In this document: piece by piece, positions 11,301-62,600 of the stretch
How the letters are laid out: every line of letters begins with the position of its first letter
Position numbering within the stretch: position 1 is the stretch's first letter
DNA from: Asterias amurensis
Taxonomy: Eukaryota > Echinodermata > Asteroidea > Forcipulatida > Asteriidae
DNA: 64,000 nucleotides
Assembly (NCBI RefSeq): GCF_032118995.1
Contig: NC_092648.1
Span: 1,007,001 to 1,071,000 of the forward strand
Direction: 5' to 3'
Program-made: the position numbers and the translations under genes
Notes under the pieces: generated by a model
Databases searched by the model: none
The model's input: the letters and a program-made list of their open reading frames with translations, nothing else
Told to the model about the DNA's origin: nothing

Positions 11301-12330
11301 TGATAATGCTGAGAGTGATGCGAGGGTTGGATGGAGTTGATGATTACACTAGTCATCCCACCAGAGTGGTGAAGTACGACTACCAGACCTGGATGAGATC
11401 TGAAGGATTATCTAATGACAACATGTACCATGAACACAGTCACTCTCCAAAAAGAAACACAACCACAAATCCTGCAGATTGTAGACCAGGGAATATACAA
11501 TGAATTGATTTGCAAAGATGAGCCACCAGCAGATGATGTGAAGTTCAAGACAGAAGCTTGAAGATTCAGGGCCTAATTTTATTGAACTATTTGTAACTTA
11601 TTCAGCGTCCAATAACAAAGACCAGCATTCTCCTGGAGACAATCAGAGCAATAATTATGTAGAGCTACAATGTAGAAGTCCTGACATATTCTAGGGCGTC
11701 GATCGCTACTAAAAAGCAGGGGAAACCTGTCCTTCTGATTTGAAGCGTGCGATTGCACTCGAAAGCCTAAAGCTGTCTCAAGAGTGCGAATAATCACATG
11801 CCTGATCCTCTGACAATGCAAACCTGGGCATTAAGTTTTGGCGCAATCATGCTACATAATTTGTCTGTTTTAATTTTATTTTTATCTTCAATAAAAAACA
11901 TTTTCGCAATGCAAATCGAATCACAGTGTAAAGCTTCCCATCTAAAAAAAAAAAAAAGGATTCAAAAGTTGCCAAGGTCGGTCGTCATCGATCGACATCA
12001 GCAGGCAGGCAGCATGACCCCCCGCTGAAGAGCCTCATGCTTAGTCCTTTATTAATCACTGATTATTTTTTCCTGAAACTCCATTCTCATGGCTGACTCT
12101 TTAATACTTATATGCTATATTCAGCTAGCACATAAATTTGCTTAAACTCAGGAAGAGGATAATGATATATGATGACACAACTACAAAGTCAGCAAAGCAA
12201 TAAAAGTAGTTTAACAAAAATTTAATCATTAAAAATTTCTTAATCATTAGACCAGCAAGCTTGCCCAGTGCTATTTATAAAATATGCTAAGTATATGATG
12301 AGGTTAAAAGACATTGTTTGTTAGTTACCT
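11301..12330. other. No gene seen
   Basis: Contains a 72-codon open stretch at 11285-11503 without recognisable domains or splice context, an A-run near 11945-11957, and a short 'gggcctaattttat' MITE end near 11568. Nothing else is supportable. Confidence 0.35.
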
Positions 12331-12683
12331 TGCAGGCTGTCATCCCTCGAGTGTAGTCATGGTGTGGTGAATGCAACGCTGGAGCTGTGCCTTCCACTGA
12401 TCTTACCATCCCATGACAGAGAAGTAATATATAGGTTTGAATTAATGAATTTTTGTTCAATAACCAAAAGAGTACTATCCACCTAAGCTTGGGTCATACT
12501 TCCTGCAAATGCTTCGTGCGTCACAAAGGGAAAGAAAGCGTGTATCGATTATTGTGTCACTTCGCTTCTCATTCGCAGGAAATATAAACCGGGCTATAAA
12601 GTCAAAATACAGGATTTTTTTGGGGTCTGGGAGAAAACTTTTCTTCTGCAGAAGATTGCTCTATAGTAATTTTTCTCTTTCAG

Positions 12684-12888
12684 ATGGCTGCCCAGGATAT
12701 CCACCACATCTTGTTCTGGCAAGGTGAAGTAGACGAACCATCCATACAGTTGAGATGTCCTCCTACTAGGATGGAAATGATCACCGGATGCATTGGACAT
12801 GGATCTAGACTTCTCCAGACATTAATGATGGCTGCCTTCCACTTGAAGTTTTGTTTGGCTGAGACATAATTTGGAACAGTCTTGACAG
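12684..12888 (+). other. Unit B, best copy: candidate exon with a 61-codon open frame
   Basis: Preceded by 'tttttctctttcag' and followed by 'gtaagg'. It opens ATG GCT GCC CAG and reads MAAQDIHHILFWQGEVDEPS, continuing through IQLRCPPTRMEMITGC to a stop 20 nt before the donor. Copies 13706 and 16052 keep the same frame (IAAQ.IHVFFCHGEVDEPS). Copy 18513 has an early stop. I recognise no domain. A stop before a donor would be unusual for a normal internal coding exon, hence the non-coding alternative. Confidence 0.4.
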
Positions 12889-13225
12889 GTAAGGCAGTTT
12901 TACTAAATTTAGTCAGTGTGTAAATAATGGGATTGTTGCTGTGATATTTGTTTTGTATCATTGTGTTTCATCAAGAGTGGTTAGGGCTTGTCAAACCAGA
13001 TTTTGGTAGGGCTACTTGGGTAGCCGTACAGACTTATCAAACCATTAAGTTACCTCTTATTTGAAGATTTAATTTCGAAGAACCAGATTTCATGACCACT
13101 TTAACCAACAAGTTTGCCCCACGCAGTGTTATTTGTTTTTAACTTTATACCAAGTATGATGAGGTTAAAAACTGATTAATTTTCAGTAATCTTTAAAAGA
13201 CACTGTTTTGTTAGTTACCTTGCAG

Positions 13226-13331
13226 GCTGTCATCCCTCAGTGTAGTCATGGTGTGGTGAATGCAACGCTGGAGCTGTCGTCTCAGTGGAAGATGTACCCC
13301 TCCCCTGATCCTACCGTCCCATGACAGAGAA
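13226..13331 (+). other. Unit A, best copy: candidate exon with a 32-codon open frame
   Basis: Acceptor 'ttaccttgcag' at 13215-13225. The frame reads AVIPQCSHGVVNATLELSSQ, then WKMYPSPDPTVP and a stop near the end. The donor is ambiguous: agaa|gtaata after 13331 or gaag|gttt after 13342. Copies at 14437, 15572, 16783 and 17924 keep this frame with a few substitutions. No domain recognised. Confidence 0.4.
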
Positions 13332-16300: not shown

Positions 16301-18690
16301 TTGTTGCTGTTACTCTCTATTCTCATGGTATCAATACTCAACAGGTGTTTATTTTCTATCATTGTGTTTTATCCAAGGGTGCTTATAGGGCTAGTCAAAC
16401 CTGCTTCCTGGGTAGCTCTGCAGACTAATCAAACCACTAAGTTACCTCTTATTTGAAGATTTAATCTCACATACGAATACTACATAAGAGTCACTCAGGT
16501 TTGTCAAAATTTTAGCATGTGTGTAATATGCATCATGTTTCTAGGCAATCTTCACTTATATTCAGCTAGCACAGAAATTTTGCTTTTACTCTGCAAGAGG
16601 ATAATGATGACCAACCTATTCTGGAAGCATAGCAATACAACTCGGTACAGATTTCATAACCACTTTAACCAACAAGTTTACCCCATGCACTGTTATTTGT
16701 TTGTAACATGTTACCAAGTATGTTATGAGGATAAAAACTTGTTTATTTTCAGTAATCTTTAGAAGACATAGTTACCTTGCAGGCTGTCATCCCTCAGTGT
16801 AGTTATGGTGTGCTGAATGCAACGCTGGAGCTGTCATCTCAGCAAAAAATGTACCCCTCTCCTGATCCTACCATCCCATGACAGAGAAGTAATATGAAGG
16901 TTTGAATTAATGAAACTGTTTTCAATAACTAAACAAATACCATCCACTTAAGCACAGTTCATACTTCCTGCAAATTGGCGTGACGTTTCGACCCTAGCCG
17001 AGTCTTTGCTTCCAGAAAGACTCTGCTAGGGTTGAAACATCAGTCCATTAACCTTTTTTTGCAAGGTTTGATTTAATGCATTCTTTCAATCATCTTAAAG
17101 AGTGCTAAAAACTTAAAATCAAAATACAGGATTGTTCTTTGCTGGGGGAGAAATATTTTCTTCTGCAGAAGATTTGCATGCCTTCAGACAGATGCAAGTG
17201 TGGCATCCATCAAACAGTTCACTGTACCTTTATCAACTCTTGCTCTATAGTATTTTATTCTCTTTCAGAGGCCTGCCCAGGATATCCACGTGGTCTGGCA
17301 AGGTGAAGTAGACGAACCATCCATACAGTTGAGATGTCCTCCTACTAGGATGGAAATGATCACCAGATGCATTGGACATGGATCTAGACTTTTCCCAGAC
17401 ATTCATGATGACTGCCTTCCACTTGAACCTTTGGTTTGGCTGAGACATAATTTGGAGGAACTGTCTTGACAGGTAGAGCAGTCTACTGAATTAAGTCAGT
17501 GAGTGAATAATGGGATTATTGTTGTTACTCTTTATTCTCATGGTATCAATACTCAACAGGTGTTTGTTTTTATATTTGTGTTTCATCAAGGGTGCTGAGG
17601 GCTGGTCAAACCTGCTGTTGAAGATTTAATTTTGCTAGAGAATGTTACACAAGAGTCACTCAGGTTTGTAAAAATTTATGTAGAACTTTTATGTAGAAAA
17701 TGTATAGCTAAATAACTTGAGGCAGGCAAGAGGATAATGATGACCAACTTATTCTGGAAGCAAAGCAATACAACTCGGTACAGATTTCATAACCACTTTA
17801 ACCAACAAGTTTGCCGCATGCAGTGTTATTTGTTTGCAACTTTATACCAAGTATTTTATGAGGTTAAAAACTGATTTATTTTCAGTAATCTTTAACAGAC
17901 ATTTTTTTGTTAGTTACCTTGCAGGCTGTCATCCCTCAGTGTAGTCATGGTGTGGTGAATGCAACGCTGGAGCTGACGTCTCAGCAAAAGATGTACCCCT
18001 CCCCTGATCCTACCATCCCATGACGGAGAAGTGTATACAGGTTTGAATTAAAGGCTGTCATTCCTCAGTGTAGTCATGGTGTGGTGAATGCAACGCTGGA
18101 GCTGTCGTCTCGGTGGAAGATGTTCCCCTCCCCTGATCCTGCCGACCCACAGAGAAGTTTTATGAAGGTTTGAATTAGTGCATTCTTTCGATCACCTGAG
18201 AAAGTACCATCCACTTAATTTCAAAATGCTTGATCGTTCTTTGCTGATGGGGATATGTTTCCTTCTGCAGTTCATACCCAACTGAAGAGTAAATGCCCCA
18301 GCAAGGCAGAGAAAACTTCCTGTGCCATGGCCATACCCTAGAGAAGATTGGCTAATTGAGACTTCTGAAATGACCAAAAGAAAACTGTTCTTTCCTTTGG
18401 AGAAATCATTCCCTAGAAGATTGGCATACCATCAGTCAGATGCAAGTGTTGCATCCATCAAACGGTTCAGTGTACCTTTATCAACTCCTACTCTATAGTT
18501 TTTTTCTTTCAGATGGCTGCCTAGGATACCCAACGTGTCTTGTTCTGGCACAGTGAAGTAGTTGAACCATCGATACAGTTGAGATGTCCTCCTACATTTT
18601 GACTTCTGTAATGTGAAGACCATAAGACTGGCTTCTACTAGAATCCTGTGTTTGGCTGAGACATTACTTGAAGGAGCAGTCCCTAGAGGT

Positions 18691-19423: not shown

Positions 19424-20085
19424 TTGAACGTGGACCATGTGGATGGAGTGGAGACAGATAGCACATCTACCCTGAAGTGACGTCATACTCCGTTGGCAGC
19501 AGTCAGCCAGCCAGTTGCACTCGAGATGTCTTCCTGATTAGACAGCAAAGTCATGTAATGATGACCACATCTCATTAACAGTGGGCCATGTGGATGGAGT
19601 GGAGACAGATAGCACATCTACCCTGATGTCACGTCATACTCCAGTGGCAGCAGTCCGCCAGCCAGTTGCACATCTACCCTGATGTCACATCGTACTCTGG
19701 TGGCAGCAGTCAGCCAGCCAGTTGCACTCGAGATGTCTTCCTGATTAGACAGCAAAGGCATGTAATGATGACCACATCTCATTAACAGTGGGCCATGTGG
19801 ATGGAGTGGAGACAGATAGCACATCTACCCTGATGTCACGTCATACTCCAGTGGCAGCAGTCCGCCAGCCAGTTGCACATCTACCCTGATGTCACATCGT
19901 ACTCTGGTGGCAGCAGTCAGCCAGCCAGTTGCACTCGAGATGTCTTCCTGATTAGACAGCAAAGCCATGTAATGATGACCACATCTCCTGATGAGTCCAG
20001 TGAGTCGAACTATTTACTGTCATCTTTTTATGCAAACATTCCCAACTCTTTAGCTGATCAGTTGATTGCCTTGTGTCATTGAACC
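19424..20085 (+). repeat. Exon-like unit C, first cluster, internally duplicated
   Basis: Follows 'cctgatccccattgcag'. The unit contains 'atggagtggagacagatagc', 'ggcagcagtcagccagccag' and 'cttcctgattagacagcaaa'. A stretch of ~210 bp is repeated within the cluster (near 19580 and 19788), so 'gtgggccatgtggatgg' recurs. Related single copies follow acceptors at 20443 and 21125. In frame, the best copy reads LNVGHLDGVETESIST... at 21125. Confidence 0.65.
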
Positions 20086-20442
20086 TAGAAAAAAAACAAC
20101 ACAAAATTTTTAATAAAAAACTTTGCTTACCAGTTCCCTCTGTTTAAAACACTACTTCAGGGGGGGGGGCGGCTTTGCTGTACGACTTCTTTTTCTGAAC
20201 TGTGTCCAATGTGACCTGTCACTGCACTTGGGGTAACAATAATCCTCCAAGCTGACAGAGCTTGTGGAAACAAGAGAGTTCTCACTTATCTAATGAGAAA
20301 GATTTGACTTTGACTGGCTGCACTGGGAAATGGCACAGTGCGACTTTAGCCTATTTCATCATGACAGGTCACATATATTTAACTAAAAACCTGACTATTC
20401 ATAATTTACTTTATTATATTTGACCTTATCTCCACATTGCAG

Positions 20443-20700
20443 CTGAACATGGAGTGGAGACAGAAAGCATATCTACCTTGATGTCACGTCGTACTCCGGT
20501 GGCAGCAGTCAGCCAGCCAGTTGCATTTGAGATGTCTTCCTGATTAGACAGCAAAGCCATGTAATGATGACCACATCTCCTGATGAGTCCAGTGAGTCAA
20601 ACTATTTATTGTTGTCTTTTTATGCAGACATTCCCAACTCTTCAGCTGATCAGCTGATTGCCTTGTTGTGTAATTGAACCTTGAAAAACACAGCACAAAA
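20443..20700 (+). repeat. Exon-like unit C, second copy
   Basis: Acceptor 'tatctccacattgcag' before 20443, then 'ctgaacatggagtggagac', 'ggcagcagtcagccagccag' and 'cctgatgagtccagtgag'. The flanking ~600 bp is also duplicated with the third copy ('acagagcttgtggaaacaag' at about 20251 and 20936). Confidence 0.6.
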
Positions 20701-21124
20701 TCTGTAATAAAAAACTTTGCTTATCAGTTCCCTCTATAGTTAAAAACACTTCAGGAAGGGGGGGGGCTTTGCTATATGACTTTATTTGCTGGACTGTGTC
20801 CATGTGACGTGTCACCACAAAATGACCCATAAGTCAGAATTTAAAATATATTAGCTATTGGTATTTCTGAATTCTGCAGATCAAGAGCTTCCCAATGGTA
20901 TATAACACTTGGGCTAACAATAATCCTCCAAGCCGACAGAGCTTGTGGAAACAAGAGAGTTCTCACTTATCTAATGAGAATGAGTTGACTTTGACTGGCT
21001 GCATTTGTAAATGGCACAGTGCGACTTATAGCTTATTTCATCATGACAGGTCACATATATTTAAACTAAAAACCTGACTATTCATTTACTTTATTATATT
21101 TGACCTTATATCTCCACATTGCAG

Positions 21125-21375
21125 CTGAACGTGGGTCATTTGGATGGAGTGGAGACAGAAAGCATATCTACCCTGTTGTCGTCGTACTCCAGTGGCGGCA
21201 GTCAGCCAGCCAGTTGCACACGAGGTGTCTTCCTGATTAGACAGCAAAGCCATGTAATAATGACCACTTCTCCTGATCAGTCCAGTGAGTCAAACTATTT
21301 ATTGTCATCTTTTTATGTAGAAATTCTCTACTCTTTAGCTGACCAGCTGATTGCCTTTTGTTTGAACAGAACTTA
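21125..21375 (+). repeat. Exon-like unit C, third copy, with an 83-codon open frame
   Basis: Acceptor 'tatctccacattgcag' before 21125. The open frame runs from the acceptor to TAA at about 21374: LNVGHLDGVETESISTLLSS, later QSHVIMTTSPDQSSESNY. No domain recognised. The equivalent frame in the copies at 19424 and 20443 contains stops. Confidence 0.45.
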
Positions 21376-21393
21376 ACAAATTTTGCCATCACA

Positions 21394-21490
21394 GCTTCGT
21401 TGGAGCGAATATTTCGTAGGAGTTGAACACAGCTCAACTCTTTTAAATTGTTTGTTGCGATTTTGAGACGAAGTATGAACCAGGCTTTAC
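21394..21490. mobile_element. Remnant of the 'cggttcatacttc' MITE
   Basis: Ends 'acgaagtatgaaccaggcttta', matching the right terminus of the complete element at 60959-61149, with the same 'ttgctcaact'-type interior in diverged form. Confidence 0.5.
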
Positions 21491-21624
21491 AGTTATTTCA
21501 GACTTAAGCGGCTGGGTTGTGTTTTTTGTCGGGTTTTATCAATAGGCTTTTGAAAATTACCTGCCAAATCTTTTTGTCAAACACAAATATCAAGACAAAT
21601 TCATAACCTTTCATAGTTTCATTC

Positions 21625-21655
21625 TGAGAGAGAGAGAGAGAGAGTGGGAGGGGGA
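21625..21655. repeat. (GA)n microsatellite
   Basis: Run of gagaga followed by gtgggaggggg. Confidence 0.9.
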
Positions 21656-22121
21656 GCTCACTGATGATTAAAGTTCATACCAGTAACAATCCTCCAGAGA
21701 ATTGTTTGAGGCAATTGACATTTCCGAGTTTTACTGTTGCATATTGGGATCGCAGTAATACAAACGGTCCTGTATGAGCTCCTGGAACAACTTGTTGCTA
21801 ACAATTTTGAAACATTATTTTTTTCACTAATTTTTTTGAAACAAATCCAGAGGTGACGGCAAGTTTTCTGTACTTTACTGTTTGATGATGGTTATGTTCT
21901 TAAAAACACTAAATGTTGCAAACTTTTCATTTTGTTGCAGTCAGGCCTAGCATCTTCAAAGACATCTTCCCATCAATAAGTAGATCTCCGAGACCAGCCA
22001 ATGATGAAAGAGCTTCACTCTCCAATCAAAGGCGAGTTCATAACAAGATTGCTTCTATCACTTACCCGTCCCGAATGAAGCTCTGAAAGAATTGTGCGGA
22101 ATGCATGTTCTTGCTGTTATT
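21656..22121. other. Stretch with one exon-like block
   Basis: At 21942 a good acceptor (cattttgttgcag) is followed by about 110 bp that is GC-richer than its surroundings and ends near 'gttcataacaag'. It may be a further exon of the + strand transcript. No conserved protein is visible. Confidence 0.3.
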
Positions 22122-38902: not shown

Positions 38903-39094
38903 TAAAGGCACTGTACACCTTGCGTAATATTTGAGTGAGATATTACCTCTTTCTCAAAAACTATGTTACTTCAGAGAGAGAGCCATTTGATTTCTCAAAA
39001 TGTTGTATCAACAGCTCTCCCATGCTCGTTACCAAGTAAGTTTTTATGCTAACAATTATGCTGAGTAATTACCATAGATTTCCAGTGTCTTCAA
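38903..39094. mobile_element. MITE of the 'taaaggcactggacac' family, internally deleted
   Basis: Left end taaaggcactgtacacc, right end 'tttccagtgtcttcaa'. It keeps 'gctcgttaccaagtaagttt' from the right half of the element. Confidence 0.7.
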
Positions 39095-40540
39095 GTCAGC
39101 AACATTAAATGCAAAGAATATGGCTACTTATAATTATTGAGATAATATTTTTACTTTAAAATTTTATGAAGGTTTAAGTTTGTGGAGTAAAATAAGTGTA
39201 CCTTGCAAGAATCTGATTTTAAGATAAGGTTTTTCCTCCTAAAAACAAAAGACCAAAGTACTATAGCTTTCTGAAAATCTTAAAGCCTCTCTTTCGAGAA
39301 GTATGCCACCCAAGAAACAGTATTCTTGTATCCACTTTCGTGAGTTCAAAATAAACACATTGTGTGGTTGCTTGCAAATGGTGCACTTACTTTTTACAAG
39401 AACATTTACTTGAATGTTAGATTACATCTGCTTCCGACATTAATAATTAACATGTCTACAATTTTACAAATGAAATCAACAAGCTTATTTCTAATTTATG
39501 ATTCCTTCATTTCAAAGAAAGCCTTGAAGACCTAAATGTTTCAACAGTATTTTTTTTTTTCCTTGCAAACTCTGGGGCTTTCATGATTGTAATGAAAGAT
39601 ATTGGCTACACGTAGGATATCAGCTTTTTCACGCTGTTAAATGGAAACCTATTTTTGTGCTTAACTATGTAACTCATTGCAATCTTGCTTCTGCATCTCT
39701 TCTGCGCCAGGAGCGTCTTTAAGACAGACATGGCGCATTATAAATTGCCACTATTATTATTAAATGAACTAGCCCTAACTAGGGGCGTTTATTTGCCCCT
39801 GTTATCAAAATATGGTGATCCATTAATGATGACTACACTTATACAACATTTAAATCTTCAAATCAATTTTGCCAATGTGTACCTTAAACAAATTGGATCT
39901 GATTTGCCTGAACTAAATTTGTGCAAATTTGTTTTAGGTCAGGCATGGTGTTCAGCACATTCCAGATCTTTTACTTATCATCATACGATGCGAAATAATT
40001 TCATTCTTAGTTTATGATTTAACTTTAAGAAAGAATATTAATGGTTCATATTTAAAAGGTTTTTAATGATTTAAAATTGTATTTCTGTACAGTTAAAGGG
40101 GTTTTGTTAATTTAAAACATGTTTCCTATCTTTTAAATCTGTAATCAATCTGGAGGGACAGACCTCTCATTTCGGGTTAGGCTGATGCCTGCATTCATCC
40201 CCAAAAATGTTGTGGCATGTGATGAGATATTCTGTTGGTATGAGTGCTGCAAAAACAGACCACCCTTTGATGTTAGTGTAAAACAACCACAGGTATTTTA
40301 CCTTCCTCTTGCGTAACCCTCACACATCTTAGCTGGTGATGTGTAGACAGTGGGCTGACTATACGCAGTTGCAGGTCTAGGAAATCATCTACAGATAGAT
40401 TAACACAAACAAATGCTATGTTAAGGTACAGTTAAATTGTGACATTCAAAAATGTAAGCTTAGTTTTTTCAAGTATTCACAGAAAAGTTTAAAGATGTTC
40501 GAGGTCAAACAACGGGATGTAAATGTTTGAGACAAGGTAA
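39095..40540. other. No gene supported
   Basis: Holds a 110-codon open stretch at 39685-40017 with no recognisable domain or splice context. On the minus strand 40303-40379 looks like a small exon (acceptor before 'acctgcaactgcg', donor after 'caagaggaag'), encoding ...LQLRIVSPLSTHHQLRCVRV. I cannot place it in a family; it could belong to the TSP1-bearing locus further right. Confidence 0.3.
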
Positions 40541-40699
40541 TTCTTTATGTTGAGGTCAGTGTACATTTGTAGGAATTCCTCCAAATGAAAAATAAATAAA
40601 ACAATTCCCTGAATCCCCCCCCCCCCCAAAAAAAAGAAGAGAACAAAACAAGACTAGAATGGTGTTTTGATAAGTGCAAATACCATGCATAAGTGCACC

Positions 40700-41150
40700 A
40701 AGTGCAAATACCAGTAACTTTCTTAGGGATCCCAAGACCAATTCTACAGATCAAGTTTGGAGATGACAAGTTCTTCTAGAGTTATTGCTTGGGCAACATT
40801 TATGTTGATTAAGCCATAATGACTTTGCCATTTGACCTAGGGGATCCAAAAACAATAGGTTTCCGGGGATCCTAAAAAAAAAACCAAGCTACAAAATTTG
40901 GAGTTGATATGCCAAGTCCTTCTTTGCTCAGACAACATTTCTTTTGACTTAGGGGGACCAAAAACAATAGGCTTCTGGGGGATCCCAAGACCAATCAAAA
41001 TATCAAATTTGGAGCTGATAATCACTCAGACAACATTTAATTTGTTTTAGCCACAATGATCATGACATTTTATCTATGGGTTCCAAAAACAATAGGCTTC
41101 TTGGGATCCCAAGACCAATTCACAGATCAATATAGGAGACAGTATGCCAT
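40700..41150. repeat. Degenerate tandem repeat, ~110-145-bp unit, about four copies
   Basis: Recurring blocks 'ggggatcc(a/c)aa(a/g)aaca', 'ggatcccaagaccaatt' and 'gacaacatttat(g/t)ttg' at about 40728, 40869, 40980 and 41105. Copies are diverged. Confidence 0.75.
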
Positions 41151-42045
41151 GTCTTGTTTTTGTTTTAGCCACAATGACCATGACATTTCCCCACAAACCA
41201 TTTTCTTCACATCTTTTACTTATTAGAGTCTTGGGACTCCACTGCCAATAGGTTAAACTACCAAAGGGTTTGATGATATATTGCAATGATAGATTCATAA
41301 ATTAACAGCTGTTTTCATGTTCAGGAGTTTCCCATACCTTTTATAAAGGAGAGAGCAGTTCCTGGTCCAGGATCATTGTACGCTGTTAGGAAGCTCATCA
41401 ACTTCAGATCTCAGACATCTTTATGGTTGATGAGTAAATTTTGGGGGAGATGACAACCCTTTCTGTATCATGCAAACAAAGAACACAATGTTTGAGATAG
41501 CTTTACAACAATTAAGGAGTGATGGAACACATGTGGTTATTCTTTAGTGTAAAACAAAGTTTTGTAATAATCAATCAAGATAAAATCAACTAATATATAA
41601 ACTTTTCTTTACCAGTTATCGTGGGATAACATTTTAACAGGGCAAATATTTTGTACTTGAAATCCTGCTCTAAGCCTCCCCCTTACTAGAGACTCTTGTG
41701 CAATCCCCACTTCTAGACCTCTGAGTGACAGATGGGGGTTATGGGAGCTTTATAGGCTGCTATCAATGTTTTCTTGGTATTTGGCTAAGGAGATAAGGTT
41801 AAAGGCTTAGATCTGGCAAATTCACAGATCACAAATACAATATTTCCTCAAAAGAAAAAAGAAATTCCAGTTCATTTTGCAAGAGAGTTTGTCCTCCTTT
41901 AGGTCAAAATTAAGAAGAAAAAGAAAAACAGAGCATAAATAATAAATAAATAGTTTCACAAATTAATCCTGCAGGTGCGCACAGGAATATTTAAGAGTTC
42001 CCAGCAATAAGTGAATAACTCTGCAATAAATCAAAATAAATTTAC
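41151..42045. other. Mostly unique sequence
   Basis: Near 41330-41425 the minus strand has an exon-like block (donor 'ataaaag|gtatgg') that recalls TSP1 spacing (AGATGTCTGAGATCTGAAG) but contains a stop. Otherwise nothing is supportable. Confidence 0.3.
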
Positions 42046-42153
42046 CTCTGGTTGGAGAAAACATCATTGAATTCTGAGCTGGGCTGCATTCCAATCTTGC
42101 ATCTACTTCTGGAGAGGTAGACTTCATCTGAAAATGGTGTGTCTGCAGCTAGG
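42046..42153 (-). CDS. Module exon copy a (fully open, 36 codons)
   Basis: Minus strand: acceptor 'gttcccgtttag', donor 'aaccagag|gtaaa'. Length 108 nt, starting after one base and ending with two bases of a codon (symmetric phase). It reads LAADTPF, SDEVYLSRSRCKIGM, then QPSSEFNDVFSNQ. Best preserved of nine related exon-like units. The function and family are unknown to me; it has one conserved Cys and no hydrophobic segment. Confidence 0.45.
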
Positions 42154-42155
42154 CT

Positions 42156-45070
42156 AAACGGGAACAAAATAAAAGGGACATCTATTGATTAGGTCTATAA
42201 GAGACTATTTATGTGAGGTATCAAAGCACTCGCTAGTCAAGCACAGCATGGTGGCACAACTTGCTGCCAAACCATACCAGCTAGGCTAAAAGGGAACAAA
42301 ATAAAAGGGACACCTATCGATTAGGTCTATAAGAGACTATTTATGTGAGGTATCAAAGCACTCGCTAGTCAAGCACAGCATGGTGGCACAACTTGCTGCC
42401 AAACCATACCAGCTAGGCTAAATGGGAACAAAATAAAAGGGACATCTATCGATTAGGTCAATAAGAGACTATTTATTTGAGAGACCAAAGCACTCGCTAG
42501 TGAAACAAAATAAAAGGGACACCTATCGATTAGGTCTATAAGAGACTATTTATGTGAGGTATCAAAGCACTCGCTAGTCAGGCACAGCATGGTGGCACAA
42601 CTTGCTGCCAAACCATACCAGCTAGGCTAAATGGGAATAAAATAAAAGGGACCCCTAGCGATTAGGTCTATAAGAGACTATTTATGTGAGGTATCAAAGC
42701 ACTCGCTAGTGAAACACAGCATGGTGGCACAACTTGCTGCCAAACCATACCAGCTAGGCTAAATGGGAATTAAATAAAAGGGACCCCTAGCGATTAGGTC
42801 TATAAGAGACTATTTATGTGAGGTATCAAAGCACTCGCTAGTGAAACACAGCATGGTGGCACAACTTGCTGCCAAACAATACCAGCTAGACTAAATGGGA
42901 ACAAAATAAAAAGAACACCTATCGATTAGGTCTATAAGAGACTATTTATGTGAGGTATCAAAGCACTCGCTAGTCAAGCACAGCATAGTGGCACAACTTG
43001 CTGCCAAACCATACCAGCTAGGCTAAATGGGAACAAAATAAAAGGGACACCTATCAATTAGGTCTATAAGAGACTATTTATGTGAGGTATCAAAGCACTC
43101 GCTAGTTAAGCACAGCATGGTGGCACAACTTGCTGCCAAACCATACCAGCTAGGCTAAATGGGAACAAAATAAAAGGGACACCTATCGATTAGGTCTATA
43201 AGAGACTATTTATGTGAGGTATCAAAGCACTCGCTAGTCAGGCACAGCATGGTGGCACAACTTGCTGCCAAACCATACCAGCTAGGCTAAATGGGAACAA
43301 AATAAAAGGGACACCTATCAATTAGGTCTATAAGAGACTATTTATGTGAGGTATCAAAGCACTCGCTAGTTAAGCACAGCATGGTGGCACAACTTGCTGC
43401 CAAACCATACCAGCTAGGCTAAATGGGAACAAAATAAAAGGGACACCTATCAATTAGGTCTATAAGAGACTATTTATGTGAGGTATCAAAGCACTCGCTA
43501 GTTAAGCACAGCATGGTGGCACAACTTGCTGCCAAAACATACCAGCTAGGCTAAATGGGAACAAAATAAAAGGGACACCTATCGATTAGGTCTATAAGAG
43601 ACTATTTATGTGAGGTATCAAAGCACTCGCTAGTCAGGCACAGCATGGTGGCACAACTTGCTGCCAAACCATACCAGCTAGGCTAAATGGGAACAAAATA
43701 AAAGGGACACCTATCAATTAGGTCTATAAGAGACTATTTATGTGAGGTATCAAAGCACTCGCTAGTTAAGCACAGCATGGTGGCACAACTTGCTGCCAAA
43801 CCATACCAGCTAGGCTAAATGGGAACAAAATAAAGGGACACCTATCGATTAGGTCTATAAGAGACTATTTATGTGAGGTATCAAAGCACTCGCTAGTCAA
43901 GCACAGCATAGTGGCACAACTTGCTACCAAACCATACCAGCTAAGCTAAATGGGAACAAAATACAAAGGGACACCTATCGATTAGGTCTATAAGAGACTA
44001 TTTATGTGAGGTATCAAAGCACTCGCTAGTTAAGCACAGCATAGTGGCACAACTTGCTGCCAAACCATACCAGCTAAGCTAAATGGGAACAAAATAAAAG
44101 GGGCACCAATCGATTAGGTCTATATAAGACTATTTATTTGAGAGACCAAAGCACTCGCTAGTGAAACAAAATAAAAGGGACCCCTAGCGATTAGGTCTAT
44201 AAGAGACTATTTATGTGAGGTATCAAAGCACTCGCTAGTGAAACACAGCATGGTGACACAACTTGCTGTTAAACCATACCAGCTAGGCTAAATGGGAATT
44301 AAATAAAAGGGACACCTATCGTTTAGGTCTATAAGAGACAATTTATGTGAGGTATCAAAGCACTCACTTCTCAAGCACAGCATGGTGGCACAACTTGCTG
44401 CCAAACCATACCAGCTAGGCTAAATGGGAATTAAATAAAAGGGACCCCTAGCGATTAGGTCTATAAGAGACTATTTATGTGAGGTATCAAAGCACTCGCT
44501 AGTGAAACACAGCATGGTGGCACAACTTGCTGCCAAACAATACCAGCTAGACTAAATGGGAACAAAATAAAAAGAACACCTATCGATTAGGTCTATAAGA
44601 GACTATTTATGTGAGGTATCAAAGCACTCGCTAGTGAAACACAGCATGGTGGCACAACTTGCTACCAAACCATACCAGCTAGGCTAAATGGGAACAAAAT
44701 AAAAGGGACACCTATCGATTAGGTCTATAAGAGACTATTTATGTGAGGTATCAAAGCACTCGCTAGTCAAGCACAGCATGGTGGCACAACTTGCTGCCAA
44801 ACCATACCAGCTAGGCTGAATGGGAACAAAATAAAAGGGACACCTATCGATTAGGTCTATAAGAGACTATTTATGTGAGGTATCAAAGCACTCGCTAGTC
44901 AAGCACAGCATGGTGGCACAACTTGCTGCCAAACCATACCAGCTAGGCTAAATGGGAACAAAATAAAACAGACACCTATCGATTAGGTCTATAAGAGACT
45001 ATTTATGTGAGGTATCAAAGCACTCGCTAGTCAAGCACAGCATAGTGGCAACACTTGCTGCCGAATCATA
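42156..45070. repeat. Tandem array of ~23 copies of a 132-bp unit carrying a 3' splice-site copy
   Basis: Unit: 'gctaggctaaatgggaacaa', 'aataaaagggacacctatcg', 'ttaggtctataagagacta', 'tttatgtgaggtatcaaagc', 'actcgctagtcaagcacagc', 'atggtggcacaacttgctgc'. Period 132 bp in the regular part (for example ggtctataag at 43061, 43193, 43325, 43457). Two units are shortened to ~85 bp, near 42450 and 44110. On the minus strand every full unit contains 'ttgttcccatttagcctagc', the acceptor region of the module exon at 42153. The array sits in the intron directly upstream of that exon. Confidence 0.95.
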
Positions 45071-45353
45071 CCAGAAACACAGGAACAAGCCCCTCACTTT
45101 CACTGAGAGTGTTCTGGGTTCTTTAATATAATTACAAACAAACAAGACCTACAGCTGTATGCACCTTCCAGAGGATGAAGCAAAAGTGCCTTGCTCATCA
45201 AAAGGAAATGCCACAATCAGGATTCGAACCCAAAGGCAGGTGGTTGAAAATAAAAATACCTAAGTGTTTCCATATTTTTCTCAAAGCCTATTATTATCAA
45301 ACTATCAAAAATCTCTTGATGTATTTCCAATTGATGCCCTTTCATAAATTTAC

Positions 45354-45462
45354 CTGTTGATGGAGAAGACGTCGTTGATTCTTAAAGCTGGGCTATATTC
45401 CCATCACACATCTACTTCTGGAGTGGTAGACTTCATCTGACAATGGTGTGTCTACAGCTAGC
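45354..45462 (-). pseudogene. Module exon copy b, interrupted
   Basis: Splice borders kept ('cccttatag|gctagctg', 'catcaacag|gtaaa'). The frame starts LAVDTPLSDEVYHSRSRC, then meets a stop (GI*), and the length of 109 nt shifts the end by one base. If spliced in, it would truncate a protein. Confidence 0.5.
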
Positions 45463-45695
45463 CTATAAGGGAATAAAATAAAAACAGTTTATAGTAATTT
45501 CGTGTTTTTTAAAACATGGGATATGGATTTTCATGGTGGTGTTGTCATGCCCATTGGGTCACCCCCAAGTGACCCACTCCACAAGCAGGGCACTGAGGGC
45601 TGACCCGAGCTATTTGAACCTACCAGGGCAGACCGGGGTCGACACAGGGAAGCTAAGTGAACGCAATCATTATTTATTTATTTGAGTGTACCTAC

Positions 45696-45848
45696 CTGTA
45701 CATGGATTTGTTGGCAGAACTCTGTATGTGATGGTTGACTTGATTGAGGACACAGTCTAAACTCCACCAATGGTGAGCTGCCATCAGGTTGATGTCTCAG
45801 ACATGTAATGGTTCGGACTTTGATGCCAACACCACAAGTTACTGAACA
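45696..45848 (-). CDS. Thrombospondin type 1 repeat exon (51 codons)
   Basis: Minus strand: acceptor 'gtttggttccag', donor 'gtacag|gtaggt', length 153 nt, phase 0 on both sides. It reads CSVTCGVGIKVRTITCLRHQ, then PDGSSPLVEFRLCPQSSQPS and HTEFCQQIHVQ. The pattern CS.TCG.G...R...C ... C ... C is the core of a TSP1 domain as in ADAMTS and related extracellular matrix proteins; the Trp-containing start would be in the preceding exon. Likely part of a secreted matrix or adhesion protein. It lies between module copies b and c but in a different phase, so it cannot splice directly to them in frame. Whether it belongs to the same gene is open. Confidence 0.75.
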
Positions 45849-45854
45849 CTGGAA

Positions 45855-46470
45855 CCAAACAAGATGAGAAAATCACGTCAAGTTATGAAGTTGATTTATA
45901 ATTTAATAATGCATCAGTAGAGCCCACTGCATCATTTTAAAACATAAAATCACAACCGAACAATTTGCACAAATTTTATAAAAATGCTGAACTAACCCCT
46001 AAGGATTTTTTGTAAGTTTCAATATTTCCTTAATAAAGCTTAGATCTAGGTTCAAATTGCATAATAAGGCATCAGTAGAGCCTACTGCATCATTTGAGAG
46101 CATTAAATAAAAACTCAAATTTCGGCAAAAATCTGAAAATGCATGGACTTACCCCTTGATGTTTTTCAATTTTGGGTTTTTTTTCAACTTTAAATGTTTC
46201 ACGTAAAAAAATCTTTACCTGGGTTCAAGTTGCATAAGTTTGGGTTCTTGTTCATGTTTACAAACAAACAAGACCTACAGCTGTATGAAACTTCCAGAGG
46301 ATGAAGCAAAAGTGCCTTGCTCATCAAAAGGAAAAGTCACAACCAGGATTTGAAGCCAGTGGGAAGTGGTTAAAATAACATTACGTATATGTTTCCATAT
46401 TTTTATCAAAACCTAGTTTATTAAGCTGTCTTAAACCTCTTTACGCATCTCAAATTAAAGGTTTATAAAT
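45855..46470. other. Spacer within the - strand array
   Basis: Contains two copies of 'gcatcagtagagcc(c/t)actgcatcatttta/gaga' at about 45910 and 46068 (a ~158-bp direct repeat). These are followed by the recurring spacer block 'aacaaacaagacctacagct'. Confidence 0.5.
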
Positions 46471-46474
46471 TCAC

Positions 46475-46583
46475 CTGTTGATGGAGAAGACATCATTGAA
46501 TCTTAAAGCTGAGCTGAATTCCCATCATGCATAAGATTTCTTGAGAGGTAGACATCATCTGACCATTGGCTTCTATAGCTAGC
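46475..46583 (-). pseudogene. Module exon copy c, out of phase
   Basis: Acceptor 'gcatttag|gctagc' and donor 'catcaacag|gtgaat' present. 109 nt with a frame change near the start and a stop; the SDDVYLSRNLMHDG segment is recognisable in another frame. Confidence 0.5.
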
Positions 46584-46966
46584 CTAAATGCAAACAAATT
46601 TAATTAATATTCTGTGAAAAGGGGTGTACTGTTGTTTTTCTTTCAATGCAGCAAATAAAACTTTGACCAAAAGAGGGCGCCAGACAGTTAATCTCAAAAC
46701 ACTTGTTTTACATTTTGTGGTATCAAACACTACCTATTTATAAGAGATGGCCTTTCTTTTTTCCCTGGCCTGTCCACCGGGGTGTACTAAAACATGTTTT
46801 CTATAAACTTTTACAGTTTCATGTGAAGTTTGTATGGGAGGAAGTTTGAGTATAATCCCCAGTTCTAGACCTTTGTGTCACAAACGATGACTTCTAAAAA
46901 ATTAAAAGGTCGGCACCATTGTATCAGCATGGGAGGTAAGGCTCTCTCGGTGCATCTGAAACTTAC

Positions 46967-47069
46967 CTGTTCATGGAGACGACATCATCTGATCCTAAGA
47001 TGGGCTGCATTCTAATCTTGCATCTACTTCTGGAGAGGTAGACTTCATCTGCCAGTGTCTGCAGCAACA
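46967..47069 (-). pseudogene. Module exon copy d, open but out of phase
   Basis: 103 nt; reads LADEVYLSRSRCKIRMQPIL, then GSDDVVSMN in the family frame. The shortened 5' part puts the acceptor in another phase than copies a, f and i. Splice sites are intact ('cccatttag', 'atgaacag|gtaagt'). Confidence 0.45.
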
Positions 47070-47413
47070 CTAAATGGGAACAAAATATTAAAACAGTGTT
47101 TTATGAAAGGAACACCTACCAATTGGGTCTATAAAAAAACTCTATTTATGCGAGCTTTCAACTCGCTAGTGAAACACAGCATGGTGGCACAACTTGCTGC
47201 CAAACTTGCTGGGCTCTTTAACATGTTTACAAACAAACAAGACCTACAGCTGTATGCACCTTCCAAAGGATGAAGCAAAAGTGCCTTGCTCATCAAAATG
47301 ACATGCCACAACCGGAATTTGAACCCAGTGGTTCAAAATAACATTACATTCATGTTTACATATTTTTCTTCGAATCTCTTGATGCATCTCAAATTAAAAG
47401 TTTATAAGTTTAC

Positions 47414-47493
47414 CTGTTGATGGAGAAGACATCTCTGAATCCTAAGCTAGGCTGCATTCCCATCATGCATCTACTTCTGGAGGCAGACGTTAT
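47414..47493 (-). pseudogene. Module exon copy e, 5'-shortened
   Basis: 80 nt from acceptor 'ttcccatgtcag' to donor 'catcaacag|gtaaac'. Reads ITSASRSRCMMGMQPSLGF, then RDVFSIN. Lacks the first part of the module. Confidence 0.45.
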
Positions 47494-48139
47494 CTGACAT
47501 GGGAATAAATGGGAATAAAAGATAACAAATATTCTGTAAAAAGGAATATTTACTAGTGAGGTAATTAAGGCACTAGCAACAAAGAGTAAAAGAAAAGGTG
47601 GATATTTGTTAAGAAGAAACTTGTCCTTGTCTTTAGGGAAGAACAAAAAGCTTTTGCTTCTTCTTTTTCCTACATGTTAATGTCAAACTATTTTCTACTT
47701 ATTGCTCATTAACTGGATAAGTTTTCCTTATAAGCACAAGTTATTATATGTTTTCTGAACAAAGTTATCACAATGTATTGATTGATGTTGACATGAAACA
47801 AATGTATCTGAAATGAAATGAACGAATGATTATGTGAAACATCTTGATTGGTGCAGTGGTGCAACTTGCAGCCAAACCCTACCAGAAACACAGGCCCTTC
47901 TTTTTCATGATGACTGTTCTGGGTTCTTTTACATGCATTATTTAACAAATGTGACCAACAGTATCAATGCCCCTTCTAGAGGATGAAGCTAAAGTGCATT
48001 GCTCACAAGGGGACCTGGTAACAACTTGTTCAAGAAAACAATACAATATTTGAATATTTTTCTAAAAGCCTAGTATCATCAAACTGTCCAAAATGTCTTG
48101 GTGGGTCTCAAATTAATGTTTTATCCCCCATAAATTTAC

Positions 48140-48244
48140 CTTCTGTTGGAGACTTCAATGAATCCTAAGCTGGGCTGTATTCCCATCATGCATCTCCTTC
48201 TGAAGAGGAAGACTTCATCTGACAATGGTGTGTTTGTAGCTAGG
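48140..48244 (-). CDS. Module exon copy f (fully open, 35 codons)
   Basis: 105 nt, acceptor 'tcccatccag', donor 'caacagaag|gtaaat', same phase as copy a. Reads LATNTPLSDEVFLFRRRC, then MMGIQPSLGFIEVSNR. One codon shorter than copy a. Confidence 0.4.
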
Positions 48245-48809
48245 CTGGATGGGAAAATAATGAAAAGAGTATAAATGGGAATACAATAAAAACAGTGTTT
48301 TGTGAAAGGTCTATTTATAAGGAATGTTTAGGTGAGATTCTAAAGCACTCACATAGGGAAGCACAGCTTGGGTCAAGTTCAAGCAAGGGTCTAAAGTCAA
48401 CCGTTGGTTGATTTTCCTTGGTGCACACGATCAACTGCATGCATAGGTTACCATAGAACATTGACTAGAGGTTGACCAATGGTCGCTGCTCAAACTTGCC
48501 CTTGGTGGCTTTCACTTGCTGCCAAAGTACAAAGAAATACAGAAGCAAATCCCTCACTTCCACTGTGAGTGTTCTGGATTGTTTTACATGTGTTACAAAC
48601 AAACAACACCTACAGCTGTATGCACCTTCCAGAGGAAGATCCTTGTTCATGAAATGAACAAAAGTGCAACAACCAGGATTTGAACCCAGTGGTAAGTGGT
48701 TGAAAATAACATTACGTACATGTTTACATATTTTGTTCAAAGCGCAATATCATCAAGTTGTCTATGGTCACTTGATGCATGTCAAATTAAAGGTTCATAA
48801 ATTTAATAC

Positions 48810-48924
48810 CTGTTGATGGAGAAGACGTCAATCAATGAATCTTGAAGCTGGGCTGTATTTTTAATCATGCATCTGCTTCTGGAGACGAAGACTTCATCTG
48901 ACAATGGCATTTCTGCAGCTAGGC
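48810..48924 (-). pseudogene. Module exon copy g, open but asymmetric
   Basis: 115 nt; reads LAAEMPLSDEVFVSRSRCMI, then KNTAQLQDSLIDVFSIN. The conserved centre and end are intact, but the acceptor 'gcattag' lies one base further out, so the phase differs from copies a, f and i. Confidence 0.4.
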
Positions 48925-48957
48925 CTAATGCAAAACAAAAACAATATTTTGTGATAA

Positions 48958-48972
48958 AGGGGGGGGGGGGTG
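48958..48972. repeat. Poly-G tract
   Basis: Run of about 12 G following 'gataaa'. Confidence 0.9.
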
Positions 48973-49104
48973 TTTCGGTTTGCATTTATTTTACCAACAA
49001 TGTCATATTGGGTTGTCTTGACCTTACGAGGGCGCTTCACAGGTAATCTCAAAACACTTGCTTTCACTTATGATGCATCTTAAAATACTTAAATATTAAT
49101 TTAC

Positions 49105-49216
49105 CTCCTGTGGAGCAGTCATCATTTTATCTTGAAGCTGGGCTGTACTCCCATCATACATCTTCTTTTGGAGAGATAAACTTCATTTGACAATGGCAAT
49201 GGCATCTGCAGCTAGC
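49105..49216 (-). pseudogene. Module exon copy h, interrupted
   Basis: 112 nt. SNEVYLSKRRCMMGVQPSFK is recognisable and is followed by a stop. A small duplication 'gccattgccattg' near the 5' end changes the phase. Confidence 0.45.
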
Positions 49217-49572
49217 CTAAGTAAACAAAACAAAACAATTTTCTGTGAAAGGGAATATACCAGAGGTCAACCATCAATGAGCAAAAGAAACGGTAAAAAA
49301 GAAACTATTATGCATTGCAATCCATCAAAGCACCCACTCGGCAAGCCCTTTCTCTTTTATGATGAGTGTTCTGGATTCTTTTGTCAGGTCCCTTTCATCA
49401 GAGGATGAAGCAAAAGTGCTTTGCTCACAAGGAAGCAGGATTCAGACCCTGTAACAAGTTATTCAAGAAAACTTTGGCAAACTTTTCTAAAAGCCTGTAT
49501 CATCAAACTGTAAAAAATCTCATGATGAGTCTTAGAAGTTAGACTTAAGATGGTTGATAATGATAAACATAC

Positions 49573-49674
49573 CTGTTGATGGAGATGACATCGTTGAATC
49601 TGGACTTCATATGGATCAGGCATCTACGTGTACTTTTGAAGAGGCGCATTTGATAATGGCGTGTATGTGGTAGC
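49573..49674 (-). CDS. Module exon copy i (fully open, 34 codons, most diverged)
   Basis: 102 nt, acceptor 'tttgtataag', donor 'catcaacag|gtatg', same symmetric phase as copies a and f. Reads LPHTRHYQMRLFKSTRRC, then LIHMKSRFNDVISIN. Keeps the single Cys and the end of the module. First in transcription order. Confidence 0.4.
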
Positions 49675-49679
49675 CTTAT

Positions 49680-50300
49680 ACAAACAAAATGAAAACAATA
49701 TTTTGTGATAAAAGGGGTGTGTTTCACTTTGCCTTTTATTATAAAAGCCGCAAAAATTTCATATTGCCTTGACTTTTACGCCTACTACAGATAGTATACA
49801 AGCGAGGGCGCTACACAGGTAATCGCAAAACACTTAGAAAAGGTTTCCAAAAAGTTTATGGTGAAAATTTATACGAATTTGCTAGAGATGGCACCGCCTG
49901 TCTGCTGGGGCGTATCAGTAAGAAAGAGATTCAGTGATGGTTCCAATCTTTTTAATAAGATAAATCTCTGCGTACAAAACAATGAAGAATGTAAAACAAA
50001 TCATGTAAGAATATGAACAAACATTAATATAATAATAATTTCTATTTGCATTGTAAAGAAGCTTTATACACACCACACAGGACGTCAGAGCAGTGCCAAC
50101 GAGAATGGTGTCTCCTACTACTACCAACCAAGTGCCGGGGTTCGGACACACTTCCCCGGCAGCGTACTCCCCGCCACCCGCTCAACTCAAGTTCGGAGTT
50201 TTGGAATTTGACAAAAGGGGCTCAGAGGTCCTCACGTATCTTCAAATTCTTGGTGTTTAAATCTTATAAAATCAAATCAACATTATCACAATCAAGTTAG
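49680..50300. other. Leader region of the - strand array
   Basis: No firm exon. At 50040-50165 a GC-richer block on the minus strand reads ...EVCPNPGTWLVVVGDTI... and could be an exon, but neither frame nor borders are certain. Confidence 0.3.
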
Positions 50301-50308
50301 TAACTCAC

Positions 50309-50485
50309 CATTACGTTTTGAGGAAGTTTTGCCTTTAGAACTCGGAAAAAAACTTGAATTTGTTGGAGAATAGGCACGAGAGACTTCCGCGTTGACGCAG
50401 TCAATTTGTCTTTTAAAAATGGCGGCACAAGATGTCATGTGTTGTTACGCAATGGGCGGAGCTTTCAAAAATAAATTTGCATAAA
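50309..50485 (-). promoter_or_regulatory. Promoter-like block and possible first exon of the - strand locus
   Basis: Within 80 bp lie a YY1-type site aaaatggcggc (50416-50426), a GC box gggcgg (50454-50459) and an octamer atttgcat (50475-50482). On the minus strand this leads into 'aaaacgtaatg|gtgagt', a strong donor with the exon ending at 50309. The combination is typical of a short CpG-type animal promoter. Direction is inferred from the donor. Confidence 0.45.
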
Positions 50486-59600: not shown

Positions 59601-62600
59601 GACTGTGATAGGCTCCAGAGGTGCACCATTGTCCGTTAATCCATAAAGTGCTGGTTGGTTAAGCAGAAATATTATCCTGAAGCATTCTAGGCTCGTTCCC
59701 ATAGCAAGTCACCATGACAACCAAAATACTAAACAGATACCAGTCAATCTGAAGTTCACCTTTGGGAACTATCCCTAAGGGTCTGTAGAATTGGTATCTG
59801 GACATCAAACACATTTATTTCTATATAACTTCTAACAAATGAAAACAAAGTGTCTTTCCTCAGAACATACAGAAAACGTTTAAATCTTTCACATTTATCT
59901 GATCCAGTCTCTTAAATACTCAGATATTTTACTTTTTAATTTATTCAGACAAAATTACATGACATACTTCATTTTGTTATTAATATCCTTTATTCCCCTC
60001 CCATGTCAGACATTTGTGTCCATTAAATGAAATTACCCTTGTACATTAAAGTTAAGACCAAAATGCAGTAAACATGACATAAACATGGCTGTACGCTTGT
60101 CTCAGAACGCTAACCATACATACATGTAACATACATTATGTGTATTATGTTCCCCCATTCAATGTACATGTATCAATGTAATAAATTCATTATAAGTAAA
60201 GAGCAGACGTCAATGAGATTAAAAATTTCTCCAGCCCGCATTCCATTAATTATTAATTTAGCCGACAATTATCATTAATGTTTCATGATTGAAATTACAC
60301 CAAGCAATTTACTTCAATAATTAGCAGTCTGAAAAACAGGGCAAAGTACTTAGGACTCAATACACTCATAATGGAATACACAGGAAACACAACTGTGGCT
60401 GCAGTGAAATTTGCAGAGGGCACATGACCCTTTTGATGTAATTTGGAAAGAAAAAAAAAAGAAGCTTCATGATGGAAATGGCACAGAGCAATTTACTTCA
60501 AAAATTAGCGGTCTGAAAAAAACAGTGCAGAGTGCTAAGGTCTTAATGCACTTAGTGGAAACACAACTACGACTACAGTTAAATTCGCAGAGGAAAAATT
60601 ATCCTTTTCCATGGAAATTTTGTACACAATTTGGAAGAAAAATGCAAAAAAAAAATCTTAATTTTTGATGAATATTGTGACAATATAAATATGTTACATA
60701 GAAGCACCGGTAGGGTGTCATGGCTGAGTGGTTTGAGCCCTTTTCACACTGTGTGTTTTATCCCTGTGAACACAGCACTAAGGAGGCACAAAGACTTTAA
60801 TTAACCCCCCGAGTTACCCCAACCCACTTTCAGACTGTGTCCCTATTCATCGGTGCTCCCCCAGTGAATACCCCAGGGTTTTACCGCTTACCCCTTAGAG
60901 ACCCAAAGCAGGGGTAGCTACTCCTCGGGGTATGCTCATTTGCACGGGGCAAATAGTGTAAAGCCCGGTTCATACTTCCTGCGAACGCGAATGCGATACG
61001 AATGTTGACGTCACAAATTCGCAACAAATAGTTCGCAGCAGTTAAACTTTGCTCAACTCACTTGCGAATATCGCTGCGAAAGGAGGGTTGTGACGTCAAA
61101 TTCATGTCAAATTCGCTTCGCATACGCAGGAAGTATGAACCGGGCTTTACAAAGGCAACCCCGAGAAAAACAAGTAGTGTGAAAAAGGCTTTAGAGCATC
61201 AAATCCAAGCTCTGGTGGTTAAGTTATCGGGTGTGGGTTAGAATCCCAGTCATGACACTTGTGTTATTGAGCAAGTCGCAGGATTCAAACCAACACTCTG
61301 CTGCTGACAACACCAGGGCCTAATTTCATAGAACTGCTTAACGGTAAGCAAATTGTTGAGCTTACTGTAGAAAATGTTTCTAAAGTGCAAGCGTGTTTCA
61401 AAGGTTAGTAAGAAAATTAGGTGGCCATCTTGCGCGTTCCCATGGATTTGTATTGTTAGGTCATTAATTTTTGTGCAATAAGCACTGGAAGGTTAGCACG
61501 CCCTTTCGTATGCTTATGGTGAGCAGCTCTCTGAAATAGAAATCATGCAGTAAGCACAAAATCAGCCGCTAAGCAGCTTTATGAAACTTGGCTCTGAGAC
61601 TGCTTGGCTACACTGCGCTATTGGTGGATGTGTATAAGTAAATAAGTACCTTAATATCTTGTACTGTGCTGTTATACTGGATCTTGACTCTATTCACAAG
61701 TTTCTCCAGCTGTCTACTCAGTGCATCTACAGTCACATCATTCTCAACGATGTAAGCGAGTTCTTGAGACGTCTCTTCCTGATTCCTGAATGAGATGGAG
61801 GAGTCTGAGCAAGCGTCCCATACCTGCATGCTACGTATCGGTTGGACTCGGTGATTCACCATATGGGTCCATGCCCCAATACCTGCAGTAATCAAAGTGG
61901 AACACTGGATTTAACATCTAGGCAATATTACTCATTACAATTATTGACATCTTAGGGGTCTTTTAAAAATGTTCTCCAAGACTTTTTTTTTGGAAAATAT
62001 AAAATGGGTGTGATCCCTGGCTACACAGCAGCTGATGGTTGTATGGCTTCTGACTGGCACCCCGACCAAAGATATTGACAAAATAGGAGGACCAACATAG
62101 GGCTTGATAACGCAGTTGGCACGTTAACCCAGAGTTGTAGGTTCAAATCCCCTCATTGTCAATTTGTCTTTGTTCAACCCAAAATCAATTTCATGCTTCA
62201 TGCCTTAACCAGGCCTTAACTCAAAACTGGGTTTATTTGATCATCAAATAGATGAAAAGAAGAGCTTTCAGACACCTATGTACCTATAATAAATGCATTT
62301 TACAGCATGAATCTAATGTTTAAGACAAAAAATCACGCTGTTATTATAGCGGATGTTTTGGTTGTCTTTCAGGAGTGCGTTTTCGCAGTTTAACTGTTTC
62401 AGTTGAACTTGCTAATTGGTTGATCATTAACCATTGACCAAAACAGTTATTGGTTACGGGCGCGAACACACACCCCTGTGTTATCTGAAAACTGTCAGAT
62501 TTTGCTGCAAAATGGCAGAAATATCATAATAATCTTACTTGTGAGTAAGTCAATGGATGCATGGTTGAGAGCACACACTCTGTTGCTGTACTCATCAGGA

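Follow-up and report, generated by a model that had tools for sequence, protein, structure and literature searches.

A nine-fold exon array in Asterias amurensis as a candidate member of a multi-locus family of spliced non-coding RNAs

In mammals, the long non-coding RNA (lncRNA) FIRRE is described as one locus with tested functions, in which the RRD local repeat overlaps exons in both human (7 of 13) and mouse (11 of 23) and further local repeats are placed in introns (PMC4820808). The IPW-A exons of SNHG14, with SNORD116, are reported to be tandemly repeated non-coding exons (PMC11608373, PMC9369261). The present analysis concerns a minus-strand array of nine similar exon-like units, here called modules, in a 64,000-nt stretch of Asterias amurensis DNA (the window; C1:1007001-1071000 of a 491-Mb genome), and the relatives of that array elsewhere in the genome. 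To our knowledge, the lncRNAs with repeated exons described so far are chiefly single loci, FIRRE being one, and the purpose of the repetition is not settled. We favour, with moderate confidence, the reading that the array belongs to a multi-locus family of spliced, RNA polymerase II-type lncRNAs with repeated exons.

Like FIRRE, the array has many presumed exons built from one local repeat (nine units in the window, 66 in 12 clusters), and as in SNHG14, repeated, apparently non-coding exon-like units alternate with repeated introns. Unlike FIRRE, the presumed end block of the gene (X1) alone marks at least 40 loci on five contigs, a family predicted from DNA sequence. The relation to FIRRE is proposed as likeness of architecture, not membership. 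SNHG14 is defined by intronic small nucleolar RNAs (snoRNAs), whereas none was recognised here, either at the Rfam gathering level in the window or in a permissive search of 39900-42200. A further known system, the ADAMTS-type TSP1 domain (PF19030), is matched at 45696-45848, while the module array is without recognised relation to TSP1. A search of open-licence papers found no literature on such a repeated-exon RNA family.

Nine module units and their copies across the genome

The nine units lie between positions 42046 and 49674. A GT donor is present in 9/9, and by our reading 8/9 have an AG at or within 1-2 bases of the home acceptor position, which confirms the nine-fold array described by an earlier, sequence-only reading of this DNA. 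In the exception, u5, the home acceptor is gone by deletion and the nearest AG gives an 80-nt exon.

49573-49674, minus strand: unit u1, 102 nt, open in phase, different peptide
49105-49216, minus strand: unit u2, 112 nt, interrupted
48810-48924, minus strand: unit u3, 115 nt (109 using the nearer AG), open, no multiple of three
48140-48244, minus strand: unit u4, 105 nt, open in phase
47414-47493, minus strand: unit u5, home acceptor deleted, 80 nt measured from the nearest AG
46967-47069, minus strand: unit u6, 103 nt, open, no multiple of three
46475-46583, minus strand: unit u7, 109 nt, interrupted
45354-45462, minus strand: unit u8, 109 nt, interrupted
42046-42153, minus strand: unit u9, 108 nt, open in phase

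Three units (u1, u4 and u9; 102, 105 and 108 nt) are fully open in one symmetric phase and the remaining six are out of phase or interrupted, both as previously claimed: u3, u5 and u6 have an open frame with a length indivisible by three, and in u2, u7 and u8 every frame is interrupted. The claim of a shared peptide core, SDEVYLSRSRCMMGMQPS, held for u4 and u9, where it is recognisable in the symmetric frame, and failed for u1, which through an indel encodes another peptide. Unit-to-unit blastn comparisons gave E-values from 2.5e-8 to 6e-35 among the matches listed, so the repetition exceeds chance. The repeated unit is larger than the exon, intron DNA having been copied along in alignments of up to ~450 bp.

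A 171-base unit query against the genome returned 106 first-look candidates, and the best 40, which were scored, were all on contigs C1 or C8. With the module peptide as query, 94 candidates yielded 50 matches, of which C1 carries 43 and C8 carries 7. The unit was found in at least 11 further clusters on these two contigs. When a profile of the nine units was run on the 11 further clusters and the window, 71 matches were obtained, and the 66 with at least 50 bits were kept, giving 3-11 module copies per cluster in the 12 clusters examined:

A145: 11 units
B263: 7 units
C440: 7 units
D822: 5 units
E1191: 5 units
F1808: 3 units
G2073: 3 units
H5405: 4 units
I8: 6 units
J8: 3 units
K8: 3 units
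window: 9 units

Modules were also found near C1 2.79 Mb, C1 3.04 Mb and C8 2.16 Mb, which with the 12 clusters makes at least 15 module loci. In a tree of the units the clusters intermingle, with 44 label changes against a minimum of 11.

Splice-site retention and absence of coding constraint

The last exon base and the donor GT (G/GT) are intact in 66/66 units. Only 5 of 149 alignment columns are invariant, and the G, G and T of this site are three of them. On a FastTree tree of the 66 units, no change was inferred at the G/GT columns against a mean of 5.5 per exon column, a result with a Poisson probability of about 6e-8 if columns are independent; the units were gathered by similarity and aligned with MAFFT, and the columns are not fully independent. 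Columns outside the exon changed more often than exon columns, with means of 7.5 on the upstream side and 8.7 on the downstream side. The acceptor A changed twice and the acceptor G four times, and an AG is present near the acceptor position in 59/66 units. Where unit pairs could be aligned for 80 bp or more on the upstream side (264 pairs), identity was 0.849 in the exon and 0.796 in the flank, with the exon higher in 198, and gaps per base were 0.034 and 0.122, respectively. Where the downstream side could be aligned for 80 bp or more (331 pairs), identity was 0.837 vs 0.803, with the exon higher in 225. It is these splice signals that suggest the units are exons.

The same units show no coding constraint. 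Lengths divisible by three were found in 21/66 units of the 12 clusters, so that there is no constant reading frame, and 7/66 are intact in all respects. Over 25 codons, the 66 units carry 512 substitutions relative to the consensus, of which 132 are synonymous (neutral 128.7±8.9) and 16 give rise to stops (neutral 19.8±4.2). The ratio of non-synonymous to synonymous differences per site (pN/pS), pooled over the 21 pairs of the seven intact units, was 1.01; single pairs ranged from 0.29 to 9.5, with one undefined. The third open unit of the window, u1, was left out here, as its peptide is shifted in frame against those of the other units. Searches of Pfam and PDB with the module found no match. 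A protein module was rejected on the frame, stop, synonymous and pN/pS tests, and the sequence-only proposal of exon choice that adds modules to a protein or drops them is left unsupported, with 21/66 lengths in frame, no synonymous excess and no stop shortage. As a check on that proposal, the ratio of non-synonymous to synonymous substitution rates (dN/dS) among the open copies had been suggested. The pooled pN/pS, together with a dN/dS of 1.68 for u4 against u9 (WIN.4 and WIN.9), supplies the dN/dS half of what the proposal had itself named as grounds for giving it up.

Gene-like ends and the proposed transcript

The array is bracketed by a promoter-like block, P, on its upstream side and by two exon-like blocks, X2 and X1, with a further predicted exon between them, on its downstream side.

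50230-50482, minus strand: P, promoter-like block, 21 genome copies
50476-50482, minus strand: motif ATGCAAA in P
50435-50441, minus strand: motif CACATGA in P
50415-50426, minus strand: motif GCCGCCATTTTT in P
50309, minus strand: end (TAATG) of the presumed exon 1 in P, with donor GTGAGT starting at 50308
41338-41462, minus strand: X2, an exon-like block of 125 nt between ATACAG and GTATGG, with stops in each of the three frames
40302-40388, minus strand: predicted exon before the small intron, CTGTAG before and GTAAAAT after
40095-40301, minus strand: X1, end block, a 55-nt GT-AG intron (40301-40247) and then the presumed last exon

Among seven aligned P copies, GCCGCCATTTTT, ATGCAAAT, CACATGA and GTGAGT are each present in six. 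The P motifs are presumably of the octamer, E-box-like and YY1 types, and a start of transcription at P is what we infer from the block. X2 has at least 40 genome copies (40 scored of 54 candidates), and in 12 aligned copies the AG and the GT are each found in 11 and stops in every frame in all 12. X2 and module alternate at C1:2787001-2793000. For X1, at least 40 copies were again found (40 scored of 47 candidates). The signals of its short intron were read in 12 copies: CACTAAC and TGTTTTTGCAG occur in 12/12, GTAAAAT in 11 and GTTAAAT in one. In three young copies X1 varies less than its surroundings, at 7/207 sites against 0.102 (p 6e-4 in one of five tests).

Between two groups of X1 copies the 55-nt intron (40247-40301, minus strand) looks more conserved than the adjoining exon, which looks unusual unless short-intron splicing or another element constrains it. 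A coding reading of the X1 exon and the preceding exon was rejected, the best Pfam matches having E-values of only 0.14 and 0.27.

The order of the blocks was examined on the same strand within 20 kb, among the matches listed. X1 lies downstream of 16/21 P copies, 50/50 module matches and 39/40 X2 copies; it was found upstream of no P, module match or X2, and on the other strand near no P. A compact relative on C20 holds P, two X2 and X1 in about 2.3 kb, with no significant module match, and its form of the exon preceding X1 found no second match. P copies also occur on C11 and C17, with no X1 or module there among the matches listed. A DNA transposon with terminal inverted repeats was rejected, as no inverted repeats linked the P side and the X1 side at the six loci tested. 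Another block, X3 (38911-39121), matches seven other clusters at a varying distance from X1, and we take it for an ordinary transposable element.

In the model we propose, transcription would start at P, at about 50.4 kb on the minus strand, and exon 1 would terminate at the GTGAGT donor. The transcript would then traverse nine tandem copies of the ~108-nt exon and X2, followed by a short exon, the 55-nt intron and the X1 end block. Some or all of the repeated exons would be spliced together, giving an RNA with several similar ~108-nt segments, and copy number presumably varies between loci by duplication of exon plus flanking intron. The product is probably an RNA rather than a peptide and, by analogy with FIRRE, the segments that recur in it may serve for multivalent binding or for localisation. 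Transcription, splicing and RNA function are inferred for the family as a whole, whose size can be given as X1 at at least 40 loci, 21 P copies and module exons at at least 15 loci. The suggestion of the sequence-only reading that an exon array is kept as non-coding RNA is supported by 66/66 intact donors, the promoter-like start and the shared end. We give even weight for and against the broader claim that at least 40 copies, on at least five contigs (mostly two), represent a non-coding RNA gene with its own promoter, a short-intron end and, at many loci, a multiplied ~108-nt exon selected for splicing and not for frame, that is, an amplified family and not a single FIRRE-like locus.

If this is true, such a family, with its natural variation in repeat number across loci and its relatives in which only X2 and X1 were seen, would permit direct tests of three points: the importance of repeat number, the growth of exon arrays and the capacity of lncRNA genes to multiply into families. 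For annotators there is a warning: arrays of this kind, with their open symmetric exons, can easily give rise to false protein predictions.

Alternative readings and other features of the window

Three further features lie within the introns of the array.

45120-45260, minus strand: intronic element repeated with the exon, its consensus a tRNA T-arm-like GGGTTCAAATCCC and then a tail
42146-45074, minus strand: tandem array of 132-bp units, within the u8-u9 intron
45696-45848, minus strand: TSP1 exon between u7 and u8, PF19030 with E 1.6e-8 on 45693-45848

The intronic element has 32 scored genome copies, all on C1 or C8, in a search that skips very common words. Each full 132-bp unit carries a copy of the acceptor and of roughly the first 8 nt of the module exon, then GTATGG, so that the array puts about twenty acceptor-like sites ahead of u9. 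The TSP1 exon has a matching exon, likely its parent, at C9:19888538, with a further TSP1-like open frame downstream there, and related copies at C1:159005, C1:830055 and C1:828656. Near its end the window exon is one base shorter than the C9 copy, so its frame shifts and the final Cys is lost. It arrived together with a stretch of repetitive intron, and its sequence reads as that of a captured, damaged ADAMTS-type exon outside the RNA gene proper. The exon as a sign of a host ADAMTS gene was rejected because the C9 copy keeps the Cys-bearing end and the next TSP1 frame and the window copy loses the Cys.

Several findings weigh against a family of spliced lncRNAs. Signals are not universal: 7/66 units have no AG near the acceptor position, GTGAGT is missing from one of seven aligned P copies, and 5/21 P copies have no X1 within 20 kb among the matches listed. 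In the longest alignments, where both flanks reach 200 bp or more (30 pairs), the gap between exon and flank shrinks (0.912 vs 0.893; exon higher in 19). In the three youngest aligned copies (window, D822 and E1191), neither the last module exon (15/107 sites, 0.140 vs 0.096, p 0.14) nor X2 (16/125 sites, 0.128 vs 0.097, p 0.28) is slower than its surroundings. In 24 copies chosen by BLAST match, conservation of the intronic element roughly equals that of the exon, and codon position 3 changes slightly more than the others (6.1 vs 5.3 and 5.2; permutation p 0.08). In tests of RNA structure the module alignment folds to nothing, and single copies of module, X2 and X1 gave folding z from -0.06 to -0.49; for X1 as an alignment z was -4.05 (-2.77 on the reverse strand), with shuffled columns as the control, in which dinucleotides are not preserved. 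The model is drawn from genomic sequence.

The units could instead descend from a protein-coding family that has decayed, repeated coding exons having been amplified as pseudogenes with the splice sites as relics. We consider this unlikely, though deserving of real weight. The first 70 nt are stop-free in the proposed frame in 39/66 units, against 8 and 10 in the other frames. The C20 locus is by our reading open from an ATG to the exon-1 donor, over 34 codons, and has an open start in its second X2, and the captured TSP1 exon shows that dead exons collect at these loci. Relics, however, should lose G/GT at the rate of other sites, and it is intact in every one of the 66 units; X2 has stops in every frame in 12/12 copies; and an intact coding member did not turn up, each of the 50 module peptide matches listed lying on C1 or C8 and upstream of an X1.

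That the loci are silent segmental duplicons, copied blocks carrying unused splice-like motifs, is in our view improbable. From the last unit to past X1, three loci are 88-92% alike over about 5 kb, and a different, plus-strand type of array (19.4-21.4 kb) is found again close to seven C1 loci, the window included. Passive copying sits poorly with the selective retention of G/GT and the short-intron signals, with the occurrence of P on C11 and C17 apart from any X1 or module among the matches listed, and with an open reading frame (ORF) at 61.6 kb of the window that has no second genome copy.

A host gene of intronic small RNAs, of the SNHG14/SNORD type, in which the exons would be carriers and the intronic element the product, is in line with the repetition of that element alongside the exons at high identity; we judge it very improbable, since the only Rfam match at gathering level in the window is one tRNA (6733-6805) and no snoRNA, the eight permissive matches, from a search of 39900-42200 with the array introns outside it, are all far below gathering, and the element looks like a piece of a tRNA-derived short interspersed nuclear element (SINE). 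A live gene in which exon choice adds 35-residue modules to the protein or removes them can be given hardly any credence, for all the three open symmetric units in the window, as 66 units lack frame, stop or synonymous constraint with a pooled pN/pS of 1.01 and the TSP1 exon, symmetric in phase 0 as read, sits among units of another phase.

Beside the spliced lncRNA family that we favour, the window holds further features.

61608-61910, minus strand: ORF of 100 aa, matching ACT_5 below threshold (E 0.0018), with no second copy in a genome search
6733-6805, minus strand: tRNA match, Rfam RF00005, 47.9 bits
22774-28653: 60-bp minisatellite, about 98 copies, with long open frames on both strands
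12300-18600: third array, made up of repeated blocks, with a 2.6-kb duplication at 97.8% identity and plus-strand exon-like blocks
19430-22030, plus strand: second exon-like array, TTGCAG...GTGAGTC units with the peptide YPDVTSYSGGSSQPASCTRDVFLIRQQSHVMMTTSPDES

The second array is followed by an exon-like block at about 21941-22030. Its 46 genome matches are all on C1, close to seven of the module clusters, that of the window among them, and run on the other strand from the modules, so these loci seem to hold convergent arrays.

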